Origin: Dyadobacter sediminis
Lineage (GTDB): Bacteria > Bacteroidota > Bacteroidia > Cytophagales > Spirosomataceae
Assembly (NCBI RefSeq): GCF_005860765.1
Contig: NZ_VCEI01000029.1
Span: 248,001 to 312,000, forward strand
Length of the DNA stretch: 64,000 bases
Reading direction: 5' to 3'
In this document: piece by piece, positions 47,953 to 56,258 of the stretch
How the letters are laid out: each line of letters begins with the position of its first letter
Position numbering within the stretch: position 1 is the stretch's first letter
Made by a program: the position numbers and the translations under genes
Notes under the pieces: model-generated
The model's input: only the letters and a program-made list of their open reading frames with translations
Told to the model about the DNA's origin: nothing
The model's database searches: none

Positions 47953-47966
47953 GTATGCAGGCATAC
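47953..47966. promoter_or_regulatory. Palindromic operator GTATGC-AG-GCATAC before thiolase
   Basis: A 14-bp palindrome with 6-bp arms, 49 nt before the thiolase start. It shares the core TATGC-N2-GCATA with two sites around the acyl-CoA dehydrogenase promoter (54353-54366 and 54400-54413). A T/A-rich -7-like stretch (TATTTTTA, 47940-47947) lies just upstream, so a bound repressor would cover the start of transcription. Confidence 0.65.
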
Positions 47967-48014
47967 TAACCCGTGTGGAAAACTGCATCCAACAACCGAT
48001 CAAAAACTTGTAAT

Positions 48015-49193
48015 ATGAATGCATATATAGTTGCCGGATACCGCAGTGCAGTTGGAAAAGCTTCAAAAGGCGGCTTTCGGTTTACCCGCCCGGATGATCT
48101 TGGCGCAACGGTTATCAAGCATCTTCTGGAAAAACTGCCCGCACTTGACCCGGCCAGAGTTGATGATGTCATTGTAGGAAATGCCGTTCCGGAAGCAGAA
48201 CAGGGCATGCAAATGGGACGATATGTGGCTTTGCTTGCATTGCCCAAAAATGTATCCGGCATAACAATTAACCGCTATTGCGGCTCCGGCGTGGAAGCCA
48301 TTGCGATGGCTGCTGCCAAAATCCATTGCGGAATAGCTGACTGCATTATTGCAGGCGGAACAGAATCCATGTCGCTGGTACCGACTATGGGCTGGAAAAC
48401 AGCGCTCAACTATGAAATCGCACATAGTAATCCCGATTATTATCTCAGCATGGGACTGACTGCCGAACAGGTTGCAAAGGACTTTGATATCAGCAGGGAA
48501 AAACAGGATGAATTTTCATTTCAGTCGCATCAAAAAGCATTGCGTGCCCAAAAAGAAGGCTGGTTTGCAGACGGCATTGTGCCGGTGACAGTTAAAGAAA
48601 CCTATTTTGACGCTGCAAGCGGCAAGAAAAAGACAAAGGAAATCGTAGTAACGCAGGACGAAGGCCCGAGAGCGGATACAACGCTTGATGCTTTGAACAA
48701 ACTGAGACCGGTTTTTGCTGCCGGTGGGACGGTTACGGCAGGAAACTCTTCTCAGACTTCCGACGGTGCTGCATTCGTGATGGTGATGTCGGAAAGCATG
48801 GTTAATGAACTTAATCTGAAACCCATAGCAAGAATGCTGTCTTATGCAACTGCGGGAGTGGACCCGAGAGTAATGGGAATCGGTCCGGTTGCCGCCATTC
48901 CGATTGCCCTGAAACAAGCCGGACTGAAACTGAACGATATAGAACAGATTGAGCTGAATGAAGCATTTGCCGCACAGTCGCTGGCGGTTATTCAGAAGCT
49001 GGACATAAATCCGGAAATTGTGAATCCAAATGGCGGCGCCATCGCCTTGGGCCATGCATTGGGATCAACCGGAGCAAGGCTTTCCGTACAGCTTTTTAAT
49101 GAAATGAAGCGCAGAAACCAGAAGTACGGCATGGTGACGGCATGTGTCGGCGGCGGACAGGGTGTGGCAGGAATTTATGAAAGGCTGAATTAA
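48015..49193 (+). CDS. Acetyl-CoA C-acyltransferase (thiolase)
   Basis: The last step of fatty acid beta-oxidation. About 392 residues, starting [15 protein letters not shown]. Catalytic residues visible are C89 (INRYCGSG), H347 ([11 protein letters not shown]) and C377 ([10 protein letters not shown]). The ATG at 48015 fits the thiolase N-terminus; an in-frame GTG at 47973 would add 14 unsupported residues and overlap the regulatory region. Upstream is a palindromic operator matching those before the acyl-CoA dehydrogenase gene at 54444. Other beta-oxidation genes are not adjacent. Confidence 0.94.
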
Positions 49194-49227
49194 GCCGGAG
49201 GATAAACAGAACATACATATTTGAGGG

Positions 49228-49273
49228 TCTCCCGGGAAGATAAATCATTCTTCCCGGGAGATTCTTTATTTTT
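49228..49273 (+). terminator. Terminator after thiolase
   Basis: A perfect 13-bp GC-rich inverted repeat (49228-49240 / 49249-49261) followed by a T-rich run. It shows that the glycosyltransferase gene starts after it (ATG at 49299), not at the upstream in-frame ATG at 49221. Confidence 0.88.
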
Positions 49274-49298
49274 GCCCGTTAATCATCTCGGATTTTTC

Positions 49299-50306
49299 AT
49301 GGATGTATCCATTATTATTATCAATTACAGAACGCCGGAGCTCATTCTGAACTGCCTGGATTCCATTTACAGGTTTACATCCGGCGTAAGTTTTGAAATA
49401 ATTGTGGTTGATAATGATCCTGAAAACGGAAACGGCGCAATGGTCCGGAAAGCATATCCGGATATTCACTGGATCGACATGGAATACAATGCCGGCTTCG
49501 GCAGAGCCAATAACAGAGGAATGTCGGAGGCAAACGGAACGTATTTTTTACTGCTGAACGCAGATACGCTTGTTACGGATAATGTGATTGGCCGGTGTTT
49601 TGTGCGGATGAACAAAAGACATGACGTTATTGCCTGCGGCGCACTTCAGTATTATGCAGACGGCACGCCGATGCCTTTTTACAAAAGTTTCAATGAATTC
49701 AGAAAGACCTTTTTTATTCTTCCGCCAAGTGCGCTGTTTACAAGAATCCTGAACAAAATGTACCCCGAGCCACAGTACGCTGATCCCGAACAGCACGACT
49801 GGCTTGTTGGCGCATTTATATTTCTAAGGAAAGAAGGGTTTGAAAAAACAGGCGGTTTCAGCAGTCATTTTTTTATGTACGGCGAAGATGTGGAATGGTC
49901 TGCAAGGCTGGGAAAATGGGGCAAACTCTGTTATTTCAAGAACTGTACCTTCATTCATCTGGAAAACAAAAACCCTTTCCGACGCACCAATATTTCCTGG
50001 ATCAACCGTTTCAGCACGCAAATGCAAGTTTCCAATTTCTTATGGGTACGAAAGCAATACGGCCTGTTTCAGTACCTGCTGCTCATTGCAAATTATATAC
50101 TGATGATCCCCGTTATTTATATCTGGAAAATGATCATGAACATCAAACAGAACGGAAACCCGTTTTCCGAACTCCGCACGCAGCACATCTATGTAAGGAA
50201 AATACACGTACTTTTAAAATATTTCATAAAAACAGTACGCCTGAAAAATGAACTTTTCAGGATCGGCCCAAATGAGAATATAGACTTGTTAACTTCCGCT
50301 AAATGA
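49299..50306 (+). CDS. Family 2 glycosyltransferase
   Basis: A 335-residue GT-A fold glycosyltransferase. The N-terminal MDVSIIIINYRTPELILNC start is typical of WcaA/rhamnosyltransferase-type GT2 enzymes, with NAGFGRANNRG (about 72-82), the sugar-nucleotide metal site LLLNADTLV (about 92-100), WLVGAFIFLRKEGFEKTGGF (about 168-187) and the catalytic FFMYGEDVEWSARL segment. A C-terminal hydrophobic helix (about 255-280) suggests membrane association. It overlaps the following GT4 gene by 4 nt (ATGA). A TATTTTTG -7-like element is at 49267-49274 (inside the terminator tail). The product is likely a surface polysaccharide sugar transfer. Confidence 0.88.
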   Translation: MDVSIIIINYRTPELILNCLDSIYRFTSGVSFEIIVVDNDPENGNGAMVRKAYPDIHWIDMEYNAGFGRANNRGMSEANGTYFLLLNADTLVTDNVIGRCFVRMNKRHDVIACGALQYYADGTPMPFYKSFNEFRKTFFILPPSALFTRILNKMYPEPQYADPEQHDWLVGAFIFLRKEGFEKTGGFSSHFFMYGEDVEWSARLGKWGKLCYFKNCTFIHLENKNPFRRTNISWINRFSTQMQVSNFLWVRKQYGLFQYLLLIANYILMIPVIYIWKMIMNIKQNGNPFSELRTQHIYVRKIHVLLKYFIKTVRLKNELFRIGPNENIDLLTSAK

Positions 50307-51418
50307 ATAGTACCAAGAAAAAAATTCTCTTTTTTACCCCATATGCCACAAGGACAGGATCTGAAATGATGCTGCTTTACATTCTTGAAAAACTGGACCG
50401 CACCCGCTTTGACGCAGGCATCGTCAGTTTTGCAGATGGCGAATTGCTGAAAGAATTTCCTGAAGATATTCCCGTTTACATCGTTCCGAAAAATTTTAAC
50501 CTGTTCCAGAAGATCTCGTTTCAGCTCGGCGTCAACCCGACGCTGGAATTTCTCAGAAAACTGGCCAAATCGTTCAAGGCTGACTTCTGGTATATCAATA
50601 CGACCATGATTCCCGAAGCCGTAGCCATAGCCAGAGAATTTTCTATAAAAATGGTTACGCACTTTCATGAACTGCCATTAACGTATGCTTACCTGAAAAA
50701 ACCGGAATTCAAAAGTATTATCGATGATTCGGATTTGCTCATCGGATGCTCGCAGGCAACCTGCAAAGCATTGCAGGATTCCGGTGGTAAAAATGTAAGC
50801 CTGCTTTATTCTTTTATAGACCCTAACAAAGTAAAAAAAGACGATCAGCGTGCCGGTGAACTGAAACAAAAGCTAGGAATTCCGCAAGGTGATTTTGTAT
50901 GGGTACTGTCCGGCATCACTTCCGAGCGGAAAGGATTCGATCTGCTGCCGGATATAGCGCAAGAATTGAATGAATCCGGCGTTCATCTGGTATGGGTCGG
51001 GAAAAAGCTGGACGACGGTCTTGTTTATTATACCGAACAGCGCAGCAAGCATTCCAGTGCCGCAACCAGAATCCACTTTGCCGGAGAACAAAAGGAAGAT
51101 TATTACAACTATCTGAATATGGCAAACGGATTTCTGCTCACTTCGAGACAAGACCCGTTTCCGCTTGTCATGATTGAAGCTGCATTGCTCGGCAAACCGA
51201 TCGTTTCTTTTCCTTCCGGCGGCGCATCCGAGTTCGTTCAGGAAGGAATGGGAATTGTAACCGAAGATATCAGCGTAAAACAGCTTGTGAATGCAATGCG
51301 CTCGGTCATGAACGGGCAGACAACTACAGACAGTACCAAAAGTATTGAAGTGGCCAGCCGGTTCAACGTGGAAAACGGGTATAAAAACTGGATCGAACTC
51401 ATAGATAAAAATTACTAG
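50303..51418 (+). CDS. Family 4 glycosyltransferase
   Basis: A 371-residue GT-B fold glycosyltransferase. N-terminal Rossmann half: KKKILFFTPYATRTGSEMML. C-terminal half: VLSGITSERKGFDLL (about 201-215), GFLLTSRQDPFPLVMIEAALLGKPIVSF (the E-x7-E-type nucleotide site, about 278-305), and PSGGASEFVQEG. It is co-transcribed with the GT2 gene by a 4-nt overlap and with the next T9SS gene (1 nt between stop and start). It could build a surface glycan; substrates unknown. Confidence 0.9.
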   Translation: MNSTKKKILFFTPYATRTGSEMMLLYILEKLDRTRFDAGIVSFADGELLKEFPEDIPVYIVPKNFNLFQKISFQLGVNPTLEFLRKLAKSFKADFWYINTTMIPEAVAIAREFSIKMVTHFHELPLTYAYLKKPEFKSIIDDSDLLIGCSQATCKALQDSGGKNVSLLYSFIDPNKVKKDDQRAGELKQKLGIPQGDFVWVLSGITSERKGFDLLPDIAQELNESGVHLVWVGKKLDDGLVYYTEQRSKHSSAATRIHFAGEQKEDYYNYLNMANGFLLTSRQDPFPLVMIEAALLGKPIVSFPSGGASEFVQEGMGIVTEDISVKQLVNAMRSVMNGQTTTDSTKSIEVASRFNVENGYKNWIELIDKNY

Positions 51419-51419
51419 C

Positions 51420-54311
51420 ATGGACAAACTGATGCATACTTCCCGTTTGCCGGCCCGGATCCTGTTTTGCTTTTTTTGCTGGATTCTTTCTGTAAAAACG
51501 GCTTACGCCCAAATCAGTCAGTCAACAACCGAAGCTGATCCGCAGCGCTATCTTGCCCTGATGCTTCTGAACCTTACCGAGGCCAGTAACCGCGGTCCGG
51601 AACCTGATCTGATACGCACTTCCCGGCAATATGGCCTCAATGCGGTTTACATCAATATTCCATGGGACAAAGTTTATGACAAATCTCCCGCTGACGCGCC
51701 GAACTGGGCGAAATACGACGAGCAGATTAAAATTGCTACGGACCTTGGCATGAAAGTGGCATTGCGGATCAACATTGCACGCCACAACTCACGGATCAAG
51801 GGATACTGGGAAGTGTCCGACAGCCAGATCAGTCAGCAGGGCAAACCTTTGCAGGGCGGTTACGGAGATACTTTTGTCGGATTTGATAACCAGCCCATTA
51901 TTAACAAAGGCATCGGATTCGTCAGGGAAGTTGTAGCGCATTACAAACATCTTCAGACCAGCAACAGCCTTTTATTTGTGTCTGTAACCAATACACCGAC
52001 GCAGGAAGGAGAATATCCTAGCGTGCTGATCACCGACGGAAAAGAAATTCCGGCCGTTTACGATTACTCCACATCCATGGTAAAAGGCTTTCAGGCATGG
52101 CTTAAAAGTAATTACAAGAAAATAGAGCGCCTCAACTTTCTCTGGGGAACTGCATACAAATCCTTTGATAATGCTCCCGCCCCTTCCACTCCATGGGAAC
52201 CAGCCAGTTCTTTCAAGCAGCGTTACGGCAAAGACTGGTATATTTACAGGCATCTGGTATTCAAAAACTATACGGAACAGATGATTGCTGCCGTAAAATC
52301 CATTGATCCGACTATCAAGTTTGTTTCCGATTATGGCTCTGTTTTTGACGCGGCTTCTGTTTCCAGAGGAACTTTGGGTTTCCGCAGCCTTAACGAAAAA
52401 TCGGACGGAATCAAGGTGAATGATGCTTTGGCCGTTTATGATCACAGATGGTCCGTGGATATCATCAAAAGCACTTCCCGGCCTAATTTCATTACAGCCA
52501 ATGAATTGTTTGTCAGCTCATTCTTTGACAGCAACATACATCTGAAACAGATTAATGAAAATTTTGAGCACGGCGCCAATATCGTAGCTGCTGTCATTTC
52601 AACGCCGGATCAGCTGGCGAGGTCTGAGAACTTTCTCAGGCAGGCATCGTCTAACTGGCTTGGCAAACCCATACCTCCGATTATTTATACGGATTCGGTT
52701 GGATACCGCCTGTCTGCAGCAGTTGAAAAATCAGGTGCAACCAATGTGATTTACAGTGAATGGGCAAGAAGGGCCTACGCAGATCCTGCCAATCCGAAAC
52801 CGGTATTGATCCGTCTGGATGAAGACCTGCTTTCGCCCGATTACTGGAAAGATGCATCCAATTATGCTCCCTATGTTTTCAGGCCGGTTCCGATGCAGAT
52901 CATTGCGGTAAACAAGGAATTTACATACAAACTGCCGACAGACACTTTCTCGGATGTGGACGGAACTATTGTGCGAACAGAAGTAACCGCATTGCCGGGC
53001 TGGCTGCGGTATGAAAGCGGACAGCTGAGAGGCAAACCTACTGTTTTGGGTGATTTTCGCATCACTGTAAAGGGAATTGATGATGAAGGCGGTTCTGCGG
53101 AAGCGTTTTTTACCATTCGGGTGGATGCAAGTGAAAACGCCAATCATCCGCCGACTGTAGACAGCAATTTCTCCAATCAGCTTGTTGCGGTAAATACTCC
53201 ATTTAACCTTGTTATTCCAAAAGGCGCCTTTAAAGACAGTGACGGACAAATAACGAAAATAGAAGCCAGCGAACTTCCCGAGTGGGTAAAATTCAACGGC
53301 ACGGCGCTGAGCGGCATGCCTGCAAAACTGGGTGAATACCGTATTATCCTGAAAGCGTATGACAATCAGAATGCTTTTGTAGAAACGTACTTTACGATCC
53401 GGGTCGTTGAACCGCAGTTCCTGAATGCACCTCCGTTTGCAAGCAATACGCTTCCGGTCAAATATGCACAGGTGAATATGCCGTTCAACTACATTCTGCC
53501 GGTCAATATCTTTGGTGATCCTGACGGCTATATTTCATCCATAACAATTCAGAACAGACCGTCGTGGCTGGACTTTTCGCTGAATGTGCTTTCGGGAACG
53601 CCAACCGAAGAAGGAGAATACCGCCTGATCGTTCGGGCGTATGACAATGCCGGCGCTTATGTCGAGATTCCGTTTATCCTGATTATAGAAATTCCCGAAC
53701 TTCGTTTTGAACTCGTGAGAGGCGGCAGTAAAGTAGAGCAGCAGGTTATACAAAAATTAAATGCAGACGACGTGCTTCCATATAGTGAAATGCCTTCGCT
53801 GCTGAACATTTATGCGTACGGTAATTTTGAATATGACCATGTAACTTTCAACCTGAACGGTCCTTATCGCCGACAATCGACTACTTCCAAATTCCCGTAT
53901 GCACTTTACGAAAACGGTTCCGGCTTTGCGCCTTACATTGGCCGTTATACTCTGAATGTCACAGCATTCAAGGCAGATTCTGCCGTTGTAACGAATTCCG
54001 TACAGTTCAGCATTTCCTATGGCGACTCGGTCAATATTACGAAAGATCTGGAAGCATGGCGGTTTTATCCGAATCCGGTCGAAAATATATTCAATATCAA
54101 GCTGCCGGAGCAACAATTGCAGGAAGAACTGAATTTTGTCCTCATCAACGCTTCAGGAAACAGCATAACCATTCCTGAAAATTTCATTTCTGTTTCCGAC
54201 AATCTCGCCAGCATTGATCTGTCCGCAGCGAGCCTTTCGGCCGGCATTTATTTTATCCATGTTGAAAGTAACGGAATGCTGCTCAAACAGTTCAAGGTCT
54301 TCAAAAAATAG
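51420..54311 (+). CDS. Large secreted GH-like protein with three Ig/CADG-type repeats and T9SS signal
   Basis: A 963-residue secreted protein with a signal peptide (to AYA30). Residues about 40-470 look like a TIM-barrel glycoside hydrolase of the GH42/GH35 type (YGLNAVYINIPWDK, LGMKVALRINIAR, VSVTNTPTQEGEY, NFITANELFVSS), with Glu candidates in QEGEY and NELF. Three related domains follow (about 482-570, 574-662 and 668-757), each with a D-x-DG motif and a GEYR/GDFRI(T/I)-type strand, resembling cadherin-like Ig repeats. After a linker domain comes a type A T9SS C-terminal domain (about 880-963; FYPNPVEN to LKQFKVFKK). It likely acts on or is tied to surface glycans made by the two upstream GTs. 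The catalytic family is inferred. Confidence 0.8.
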   Translation: MDKLMHTSRLPARILFCFFCWILSVKTAYAQISQSTTEADPQRYLALMLLNLTEASNRGPEPDLIRTSRQYGLNAVYINIPWDKVYDKSPADAPNWAKYDEQIKIATDLGMKVALRINIARHNSRIKGYWEVSDSQISQQGKPLQGGYGDTFVGFDNQPIINKGIGFVREVVAHYKHLQTSNSLLFVSVTNTPTQEGEYPSVLITDGKEIPAVYDYSTSMVKGFQAWLKSNYKKIERLNFLWGTAYKSFDNAPAPSTPWEPASSFKQRYGKDWYIYRHLVFKNYTEQMIAAVKSIDPTIKFVSDYGSVFDAASVSRGTLGFRSLNEKSDGIKVNDALAVYDHRWSVDIIKSTSRPNFITANELFVSSFFDSNIHLKQINENFEHGANIVAAVISTPDQLARSENFLRQASSNWLGKPIPPIIYTDSVGYRLSAAVEKSGATNVIYSEWARRAYADPANPKPVLIRLDEDLLSPDYWKDASNYAPYVFRPVPMQIIAVNKEFTYKLPTDTFSDVDGTIVRTEVTALPGWLRYESGQLRGKPTVLGDFRITVKGIDDEGGSAEAFFTIRVDASENANHPPTVDSNFSNQLVAVNTPFNLVIPKGAFKDSDGQITKIEASELPEWVKFNGTALSGMPAKLGEYRIILKAYDNQNAFVETYFTIRVVEPQFLNAPPFASNTLPVKYAQVNMPFNYILPVNIFGDPDGYISSITIQNRPSWLDFSLNVLSGTPTEEGEYRLIVRAYDNAGAYVEIPFILIIEIPELRFELVRGGSKVEQQVIQKLNADDVLPYSEMPSLLNIYAYGNFEYDHVTFNLNGPYRRQSTTSKFPYALYENGSGFAPYIGRYTLNVTAFKADSAVVTNSVQFSISYGDSVNITKDLEAWRFYPNPVENIFNIKLPEQQLQEELNFVLINASGNSITIPENFISVSDNLASIDLSAASLSAGIYFIHVESNGMLLKQFKVFKK

Positions 54312-54352
54312 GCTGTATATCAGACTTGTTCCTGGAATTTATTTCGCTGTTG

Positions 54353-54366
54353 TTATGCTTGCATAA
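54353..54366. promoter_or_regulatory. Palindromic operator TTATGC-TT-GCATAA
   Basis: A 14-bp perfect palindrome sharing the TATGC-N2-GCATA core with 47953-47966 and 54400-54413. It lies about 12 bp upstream of the TATATTTG -7 box of the acyl-CoA dehydrogenase, i.e. around the -33 position. Confidence 0.6.
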
Positions 54367-54377
54367 TGAATAAAATT

Positions 54378-54385
54378 TATATTTG
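54378..54385 (+). promoter_or_regulatory. TATATTTG -7 element of acyl-CoA dehydrogenase
   Basis: An exact TAnnTTTG match, flanked by two copies of the palindromic operator. A TTG at 54359-54361 lies in the first operator 16 bp upstream, giving a slightly short -33/-7 spacing. Confidence 0.55.
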
Positions 54386-54399
54386 TAATCACGATAATA

Positions 54400-54413
54400 G
54401 TATGCACGCATAC
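54400..54413. promoter_or_regulatory. Palindromic operator GTATGC-AC-GCATAC
   Basis: A 14-bp palindrome differing from the thiolase site (47953-47966) only in one spacer base. It lies 14 bp after the -7 box and 30 nt before the start codon, a classical repressor position over the transcription start. Confidence 0.65.
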
Positions 54414-54443: not shown

Positions 54444-56258
54444 ATGGCTGTTGCAGAAGATAAAAAAACGTCTATTAAAGGCGGTGAATTTTTGATTAAA
54501 GAAACTTCCGCCTCACAGATTTTTATTCCTGAGGAATTTACCGAAGAGCAGCGTATGATTGCAGATACCTGCAAAGATTTTCTGAGCAGAGAAATCTGGC
54601 CGCGGCTGGATGAAATTGACAATGCAAAAAGTCCTGATCTGATATCGGGCCTGATGGATAAAGCCGGCGAACTGGGATTGCTCGGAACAGCAGTTCCGGA
54701 AGAATATGGCGGTTTCGGGATGAATTTCAATACTTCCATGCTGGTGGCGGAAGCAACCGGCGCAGGAAATTCGTTTTCCGTTGCACTGTCCGCACATACC
54801 GGAATCGGCACCTTGCCGATCCTTTATTATGGAAATGAAGAACAAAAGTCAAAATACCTGCCCAAACTCGCAACAGGCGAATGGAAAGCAGCTTACTGTC
54901 TGACAGAACCCGACTCCGGATCGGACGCCAATTCTGGAAAAACAAAAGCCCGGCTTACTGAAGACGGAAAACACTATGCGATAACCGGGCAGAAAATGTG
55001 GATTACAAACGGCGGTTTTGCAGATATTTTTATTGTTTTTGCCAAAATAGAAGAAAATGGCCAGATTGATAAAAACCTGACGGCCTTCATCATTGAAAAG
55101 TCTTCAAACGGCATTACAATGAATGAGCCCGAGCATAAAATGGGCATCAAAGGTTCTGACACACGCCAGATTTTTTTCAATGACTGTCTGGTTCCGGCCG
55201 AGAACATGCTTTCGGAAAGAGGAAACGGCTTCAAAATTGCGGTTAACATCTTAAATATCGGCAGGATCAAACTGGCAGCAGCTGCACTCGGAGGCGCAAA
55301 AATGGTCACAAGACAAGCCATTCAGTACGCAAATGAACGCAAACAATTCGGAACGGCCATTTCCGGTTTTGGCGCCATCAAATACAAGCTCGCGGAAATG
55401 GCAGTCGGCATGTTTGCAACAGAATCGGCATCGTACCGCGTCGGACAAAATATTGATGACCTGATTACCGCATTTCAGGAAAAAGGAATGCCGGATTCAG
55501 AATCCAAGCTCAAAGCGCTGGAAGAACTGGCCATAGAATGCGCCATTATGAAAGTACACGGCTCCGAAGTACTGGATTATGTTGTGGACGAAGGCGTTCA
55601 GATTTACGGCGGAATGGGCTTTTCAGCGGATGCGCCTATGGACCGCGCTTACCGCGACAGCCGGATCAACCGTATCTTTGAAGGAACTAATGAAATCAAC
55701 CGGTTACTGGTTGTGGATATGCTCCTGAAAAGAACCATGAAAGGCCAGCTGGATCTGATGGGCCCGGCAATGGCTGTTGGAAAAGAAATCATGTCCATTC
55801 CGGATTTCAGTTCAGATGAAGATGAATCGCTGTTTGCGGCAGAAAAGAAGGTAATCCGGAGTCTTAAAAAAGCCGTTCTGATGATTGCCGGAGCTGCCGT
55901 TCAGAAATTTATGATGAAGCTTTCGGAAGAGCAGGAGATTATCATGAATCTGGCCGATATGATCATAGAAACATACGTTGCGGAATCGGTGTTGCTGCGG
56001 GTGGAAAAACGGATCGGGCTTCTGGGCGCCGATGCCAATGCACTTCAGAAGGATATGGCGGTCGTTTACCTCAACAAAGCCGTTGAAAAAATAAATAACG
56101 CCGGAAGATCGGCCATTACAAGTTTTGCAGAAGGCGACGAACTCCGCGTAATGCTGATGGGACTGAAACGGTTTACAAAAACGGAGCCTGTAAACCTGAA
56201 AGATGCACGCCGCCGTATTGCAGATAAGCTGATTGCAAAAAATGACTACGCTTTCTGA
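54444..56258 (+). CDS. Acyl-CoA dehydrogenase (long, VLCAD/ACAD9-type)
   Basis: FAD enzyme making the first double bond in acyl-CoA beta-oxidation. The 604-residue length includes a C-terminal extension beyond the usual 380-residue core, as in VLCAD-like enzymes. Visible are FTEEQRMIADTCKDFL, the AYCLTEPDSGSDA signature (about 152-164), WITNGGFADIFIVFAK, QIYGGMGFSADAPMDRAYRD (about 387-406) and IFEGTNEINRL (about 411-421), the region with the catalytic Glu in this family. Two palindromic operators flank its promoter. It lies next to the T9SS gene but is not part of that operon. Confidence 0.94.
   Translation: MAVAEDKKTSIKGGEFLIKETSASQIFIPEEFTEEQRMIADTCKDFLSREIWPRLDEIDNAKSPDLISGLMDKAGELGLLGTAVPEEYGGFGMNFNTSMLVAEATGAGNSFSVALSAHTGIGTLPILYYGNEEQKSKYLPKLATGEWKAAYCLTEPDSGSDANSGKTKARLTEDGKHYAITGQKMWITNGGFADIFIVFAKIEENGQIDKNLTAFIIEKSSNGITMNEPEHKMGIKGSDTRQIFFNDCLVPAENMLSERGNGFKIAVNILNIGRIKLAAAALGGAKMVTRQAIQYANERKQFGTAISGFGAIKYKLAEMAVGMFATESASYRVGQNIDDLITAFQEKGMPDSESKLKALEELAIECAIMKVHGSEVLDYVVDEGVQIYGGMGFSADAPMDRAYRDSRINRIFEGTNEINRLLVVDMLLKRTMKGQLDLMGPAMAVGKEIMSIPDFSSDEDESLFAAEKKVIRSLKKAVLMIAGAAVQKFMMKLSEEQEIIMNLADMIIETYVAESVLLRVEKRIGLLGADANALQKDMAVVYLNKAVEKINNAGRSAITSFAEGDELRVMLMGLKRFTKTEPVNLKDARRRIADKLIAKNDYAF

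Follow-up and report, generated by a model that had tools for sequence, protein, structure and literature searches.

A shared palindrome before beta-oxidation genes as the likely operator of a MarR-type regulator in Dyadobacter and many other Bacteroidota

A palindrome that occurs upstream of the genes for thiolase and acyl-CoA dehydrogenase (ACAD) in Dyadobacter sediminis is most likely the operator of one MarR-type regulator of beta-oxidation genes, and the same site recurs in many relatives across the phylum. Judging from the sequences, we put the probability of this reading, in which the regulator would be a repressor released by an acyl-CoA-type ligand, at roughly 0.88. Within it, direct binding, repression rather than activation and acyl-CoA as the ligand are parts that we infer, the last two from the biology of MarR proteins and from the nature of the target genes.

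The window, i.e. the whole stretch of 64,000 nucleotides that was analysed, at G000:C29:248001-312000, contains three exact copies of the core TATGCNNGCATA, with starts at 47954, 54354 and 54401. Each of these has perfect 6-bp arms and all of them lie before the thiolase or the ACAD gene, as the initial annotation had claimed from 14-mers that begin one base before the cores. The features concerned are as follows.

47954..47965, no strand: operator core TATGCAGGCATA (14-mer GTATGCAGGCATAC, 47953-47966), 61 bp upstream of the thiolase ATG
48015..49193, + strand: thiolase, acetyl-CoA C-acyltransferase, FadA-type, 392 aa (Thiolase_N 6.5e-70, Thiolase_C 7.6e-46; TIGR01930 446 bits, cut-off 240.55)
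54354..54365, no strand: operator core TATGCTTGCATA, ACAD promoter site 1, 5' of the -7 box and 90 bp upstream of the ACAD ATG
54378..54385, + strand: putative Bacteroidota -7 element TATATTTG (TAnnTTTG), between both ACAD sites
54401..54412, no strand: operator core TATGCACGCATA, ACAD promoter site 2, 3' of the -7 box and 43 bp upstream of the ATG; spacing to site 1, 47 bp
54444..56258, + strand: acyl-CoA dehydrogenase, FadE-type, 604 aa (NF058590 794.8 bits, cut-off 600; Pfam ACAD domains)

The further claims made for this arrangement also stand: the window holds no other full match; a 5.25 kb interval containing other ORFs separates the coding sequences of the two targets (about 5 kb had been given); and the two dehydrogenase sites flank the -7 box. 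In 100 shuffles of the window the core occurred 0.07 times on average and in none of them three times. One of the intervening ORFs (51420-54311, 963 aa) would by eye encode an exported protein with repeated Ig-like segments. At one mismatch the window has two more matches (15459 and 48014), which is within chance (shuffle mean 1.99). The near-match at 48014, which is also seen in relatives, lies over the start codon of thiolase; it was rejected as a second thiolase operator, since it is coding sequence and its recurrence is expected as such.

Across the 6.2 Mb genome of D. sediminis the enrichment of the bare core is modest: there are 15 sites versus 6 for the reversed pattern, and at one mismatch 203 versus 171. 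Of the 15 exact sites, seven are within ORFs of at least 336 codons, two are at unrelated genes (one 5' of a GH9 cellulase gene, the other between convergent genes), and six fall in five promoters, namely those of thiolase, ACAD (two sites), etfBA, a 4Fe-4S/CCG gene pair and MarR-fadB. The cellulase site (G000:C12:269486; L019:4487), 56 bp upstream of its gene, is a bare core without matching flanks. In full, the operator palindrome is about AATAGTATGCWWGCATACTATT, also written GTATGCNNGCATAC or GTATGCTTGCATAC. Its flanked pattern WDKTATGCNNGCATAMHW has exactly five perfect sites in the genome, one in each of the five promoters (MarR-fadB, thiolase, ACAD, etfBA and the gene pair, a two-gene EtfD-type ETF:menaquinone oxidoreductase), versus one for the reversed control; at up to two mismatches the counts are 180 and 167. 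Only the exact flanked form is a specific genome-wide predictor, the bare core alone being a poor one. Random spread through the genome, which had been named beforehand as evidence against a regulon, is thus seen for the bare 10-base core (with its seven sites in ORFs) and not for the flanked operator. As the extended pattern was partly drawn from these own-genome sites, the independent test is provided by the relatives.

The notion that the site precedes every fatty-acid gene of this genome did not hold, as three further ACAD-like genes lack it at up to one mismatch in the stretches examined. One of the three has an apparent orthologue (same neighbour gene, by eye) in a congeneric genome, and there the site is present (L363). 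The FadD of a relative gave 0 matches in the genome at 1e-20 in a search that had no positive control, and we therefore make no statement on fadD in D. sediminis.

The 4Fe-4S/CCG pair (L018:6426-8618; G000:C31) comprises two adjacent genes, one for each half. The FeS protein matches residues 16-333 of 9ojn at 7.8e-47 and the CCG protein residues 477-741 at 4.1e-75; 9ojn is described as EtfD, which connects ETF to menaquinone in mycobacterial beta-oxidation (PMC13083937). The mycobacterial EtfD is one protein, whereas here it is split over two adjacent genes. By their sequence matches to 9ojn, both halves relate the pair to the EtfD/FadF ETF:menaquinone oxidoreductase. Hence, the target set extends beyond dehydrogenation, hydration with the second oxidation, and thiolysis to electron transfer toward menaquinone.

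A TetR/MarR-type regulator encoded elsewhere had been proposed at the outset. Of this, the MarR part and the location hold: the contig of the window carries, beyond the window itself, a MarR gene preceded by the site. TetR finds no support, the conserved neighbour being a MarR.

G000:C29:333119-333583, - strand: MarR-family regulator, 155 aa, ~21 kb past the window's right end, followed by fadB

The protein has a MarR winged-helix domain (PF01047, 37.9 bits; cut-off 24.6), and all Pfam matches of the gene product at E <= 0.001 are to MarR or other winged-helix models, with no TetR model among them. It resembles the SlyA model in part (38.9 bits, 7.4e-10; cut-off 120), and none of the 13 NCBIfam models among the matches listed reaches its cut-off. 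The nearest named relatives are from Dyadobacter, that of D. flavalbus being 94% identical. The latter was used for a structure model built from 19 aligned named-locus sequences (pLDDT 84.6), for which the 50 PDB matches shown are MarR/SlyA-type by title or name, or unnamed regulators. Its first Foldseek match is CouR with p-coumaroyl-CoA (5cyv, 21% identity) and the next is AbfR, with small differences in score; 6c28 matches the MarR protein by sequence at 1.1e-5. The gene is single-copy in 120 of 121 family genomes and found in all 36 genera, and on sequence evidence a palindromic operator lies at or near its own promoter.

In relatives, footprints were counted as exact cores within 300 bp upstream, in locus sets that share some genomes. 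All of the closest 30 MarR loci (of 120 genomes) have the exact site, as do 28 of 39 diverse family loci, or 31 of 39 at up to one mismatch; 40 stretches had been taken for the diverse set, and one of them (L157), chosen for another gene, held no MarR. The other eight diverse Spirosomataceae loci have no site at up to one mismatch within 300 bp, and two of these have a symmetric two-mismatch variant instead. They belong to genus g13 (L155 and L164), and in both of them the halves have changed together to GGATGC..GCATCC, ~62 bp upstream of MarR; L134, also of g13, has one old-type and one new-type site. The search near MarR genes of relatives that had been suggested as a check was extended to 80 named loci with 400 bp upstream: the site is exact in 70, has one mismatch in seven, two in one and three in two. 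Its presence goes with that of fadB: it is exact in 65/65 named loci with FadB nearby versus 5/15 without, and all ten loci that lack an exact site (Runella included) have no FadB nearby. Families f1 and f2 mostly have a G at the half-site position adjoining TATGC, and families f6 and f7 a C or a T. The reversed-pattern control gave no exact match, and one at one mismatch, in 229 upstream regions. A MarR-fadB locus was also found under the title Flavobacterium sp. SUN052 (L219, NZ_JAPQNS010000003.1); its MarR is 73% identical to the query and Spirosomataceae-like, and the label may be wrong.

The target genes were followed through the best 30 loci each for ACAD, thiolase, etfB and etfD, out of the 59, 57, 58 and 57 genomes of the family in which these gave a match. 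An exact site lies within 300 bp upstream of the ACAD orthologue in 30/30 loci, 25 of which have two sites at a spacing of 46-52 bp. Exact upstream sites are likewise found in 30/30 loci for etfB, in 24/30 for the N-terminal half of etfD (the other six best loci have no site), and in 16/30 for thiolase (19/30 at up to one mismatch). Among the 14 thiolases without an exact site, eight stand directly behind FadB (27-239 bp, same strand), three have a one-mismatch site, and three have neither a site at up to one mismatch nor FadB in front. Absence of the motif before orthologues, the other observation that was to count against the proposal, is therefore not what the relatives present.

Of the 61 family genomes, 59 contain the extended motif, with 399 sites versus 9 for the control. 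In 12 genomes it marks at least 75 distinct places: 45 that, judged from their coordinates, are by the five known genes, and 30 others, 29 of which were examined (G036:C2:295381 was left out). Twenty-five of the 29 are directly before further beta-oxidation genes: ACADs of two more types, FadB, thiolases, FadD-like ligases, enoyl-CoA hydratases, a 2,4-dienoyl-CoA-reductase-like SDR and a CCG protein; ten of the neighbour proteins were assigned by Pfam scan and the others by tblastn against these and earlier queries. With these sites and those before the orthologous genes, the proposed fatty-acid-gene regulon is supported. At L378 the site is 579 bp upstream of FadB with a 182-codon ORF between. 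Three of the 29 sites lie outside the beta-oxidation set: two perfect extended operators in G021, one beside an agmatine deiminase gene and what is by eye a sigma-factor-like gene (L357), the other 5' of a TonB-dependent receptor gene (L358); and one site inside an ORF (L370).

Beyond the family, a search of 296 genomes of the phylum with a MarR profile at 1e-15 matched 54, of which three are Spirosomataceae; among the remaining 51, loci of 40 that represent six families were examined. In 37 of these 40 loci MarR, fadB, thiolase and ACAD follow in this order on one strand, and all 37 clusters have the operator 5' of MarR: 34 exact, including nine with two exact sites, and three with one mismatch. 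The other loci (L267, L268 and L270, of the one genus g56) have a related MarR with neither the site nor fad genes within 12 kb, which is perhaps a paralogue with another job. Given the intact cluster with its upstream operator in 37 of 40 loci of six other families, the MarR-fadB-thiolase-ACAD operon looks ancestral. The simplest reading, in which we infer the direction of change, is that it was dispersed in Dyadobacter and other Spirosomataceae, with the pieces keeping an operator. In Larkinella (6 of the 80 named loci), MarR, fadB and thiolase are followed some kb on by ACAD, with operators before both MarR and ACAD: this arrangement is intermediate. A broader account appears reasonably probable to us: one orthologous MarR subfamily would long have been the master switch for beta-oxidation, including its electron outlet, across much of Bacteroidota. 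Its ancestral operon would have fallen apart in Spirosomataceae, with a copy of the operator in front of every fragment and others recruited to etfBA, etfD, fadD, fadH-like and other ACAD genes, giving a graded series of break-up in which co-regulation was kept.

The position of the site relative to the promoter bears on how the regulator might act. The -7 element of Bacteroidota has been given as TAnnTTTG, with a much less evident -33 element (PMC6847099). Relative to an expectation that is rough, since the distance ranges were picked after seeing the data and the control used single-base rather than dinucleotide shuffles of the upstream region outside the operator, TAnnTTTG begins 17-24 bp beyond the centre of the operator in 34/58 family MarR promoters with the site (shuffles: mean 0.2, maximum 2), 13-24 bp downstream of it in 23/34 outside-family MarR promoters (mean 0.34, maximum 3), and at +17 to +24 in 13/30 ACAD promoters (mean 0.17, maximum 3). 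Elsewhere the signal at a set distance is weak, with slightly wider ranges: 4/30 for etfB, 2/24 for etfD and 4/16 for thiolase. In the thiolase and etfD promoters -7-like sequences are seen by eye upstream of the operator. The spacing at MarR fits repression by promoter occlusion and, from their positions relative to the -7 element, the sites would cover the upstream promoter or the start region, as for a blocking repressor.

It is unlikely that MarR is instead an activator working from the same sites. At the MarR and ACAD genes the site precedes the -7 box by ~20 bp, a position from which RNA polymerase could be contacted; however, blocking is what fits both the second ACAD site, which in the window lies 3' of the -7 box and recurs in 25 of 30 loci, and the thiolase and etfD sites downstream of -7-like sequences. 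Moreover, the majority of MarR proteins act as repressors. Under repression, a MarR dimer would most likely bind the operator, at the promoter or beside it, and block transcription, occupying the -33 region at MarR and ACAD and probably the start region at thiolase and etfD. When fatty acids are in use, acyl-CoA or a related ligand would probably release MarR, and its release would induce the MarR gene itself as well as the beta-oxidation cycle with its electron outlet, namely ETF and the EtfD-type ETF:menaquinone oxidoreductase.

With MarR as the one regulator that was followed, we regard it as more improbable still that the palindrome belongs to another regulator, for example of the TetR type, whose targets include the MarR operon while MarR does something else. 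A site at MarR promoters does indicate co-regulation without proving autoregulation, but it stands directly 5' of the MarR that leads the fad cluster in 37/37 outside-family cluster loci (at up to one mismatch), the family retains one MarR copy almost without exception (120/121), and the exact site is rarer where the MarR locus has no FadB nearby. Chance, or a structural feature of the RNA or DNA, was rejected as next to impossible: the modest excess of the bare core and its occurrence in ORFs would suit it, but the window shuffles, the lack of exact reversed matches in 229 upstream regions, the 399 versus 9 family sites, the conservation across families and the concerted change of both half-sites in g13 are against it.

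A MarR-type catabolic repressor is a known kind of mechanism; the regulator, motif and regulon here are, to our knowledge, apparently undescribed. We know of no described regulator of fatty-acid breakdown in Bacteroidota. The MarR regulators that bind a CoA thioester (CouR, PDB 5cyv; also 6c28) have the MarR fold in common with the present regulator. CouR controls a CoA-ester catabolic pathway and the present regulator probably does likewise, the difference being that its target is fatty-acid beta-oxidation together with ETF/EtfD; it is these target genes that suggest a CouR-like sensing of CoA-thioesters. The SlyA operator is TTAGCAAGCTAA: SlyA-type operators are short inverted repeats of similar layout, with a half-site that differs from the one here. 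The FadR of Bacillus is a TetR protein whose regulon takes in etfBA and fadF, thereby joining beta-oxidation with ETF and a membrane acceptor as here, with TetR there and MarR here. PMC13083937 lists FadF as a homologue of EtfD. In Proteobacteria, FadR (GntR), PsrA and FadP (TetR) govern fatty acid degradation regulons (PMC5343134): these concern the same pathway, while the regulator here is of the MarR type and both operator and phylum differ. Among the papers listed when part of the open-access literature was searched, neither a MarR regulator of beta-oxidation in Bacteroidota nor this motif was found.

Flavobacterium psychrophilum is reported to induce its beta-oxidation genes strongly in response to fish mucus and plasma (PMC9723704, in the main text of which the terms 'MarR' and 'palindrom' do not occur). 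If this species has the same cluster, its MarR would be a candidate switch for that induction. For fatty-acid breakdown in Bacteroidota the analysis thus provides a likely regulator along with an operator and a list of targets, and a ready test case for how co-regulation survives the scattering of an operon.
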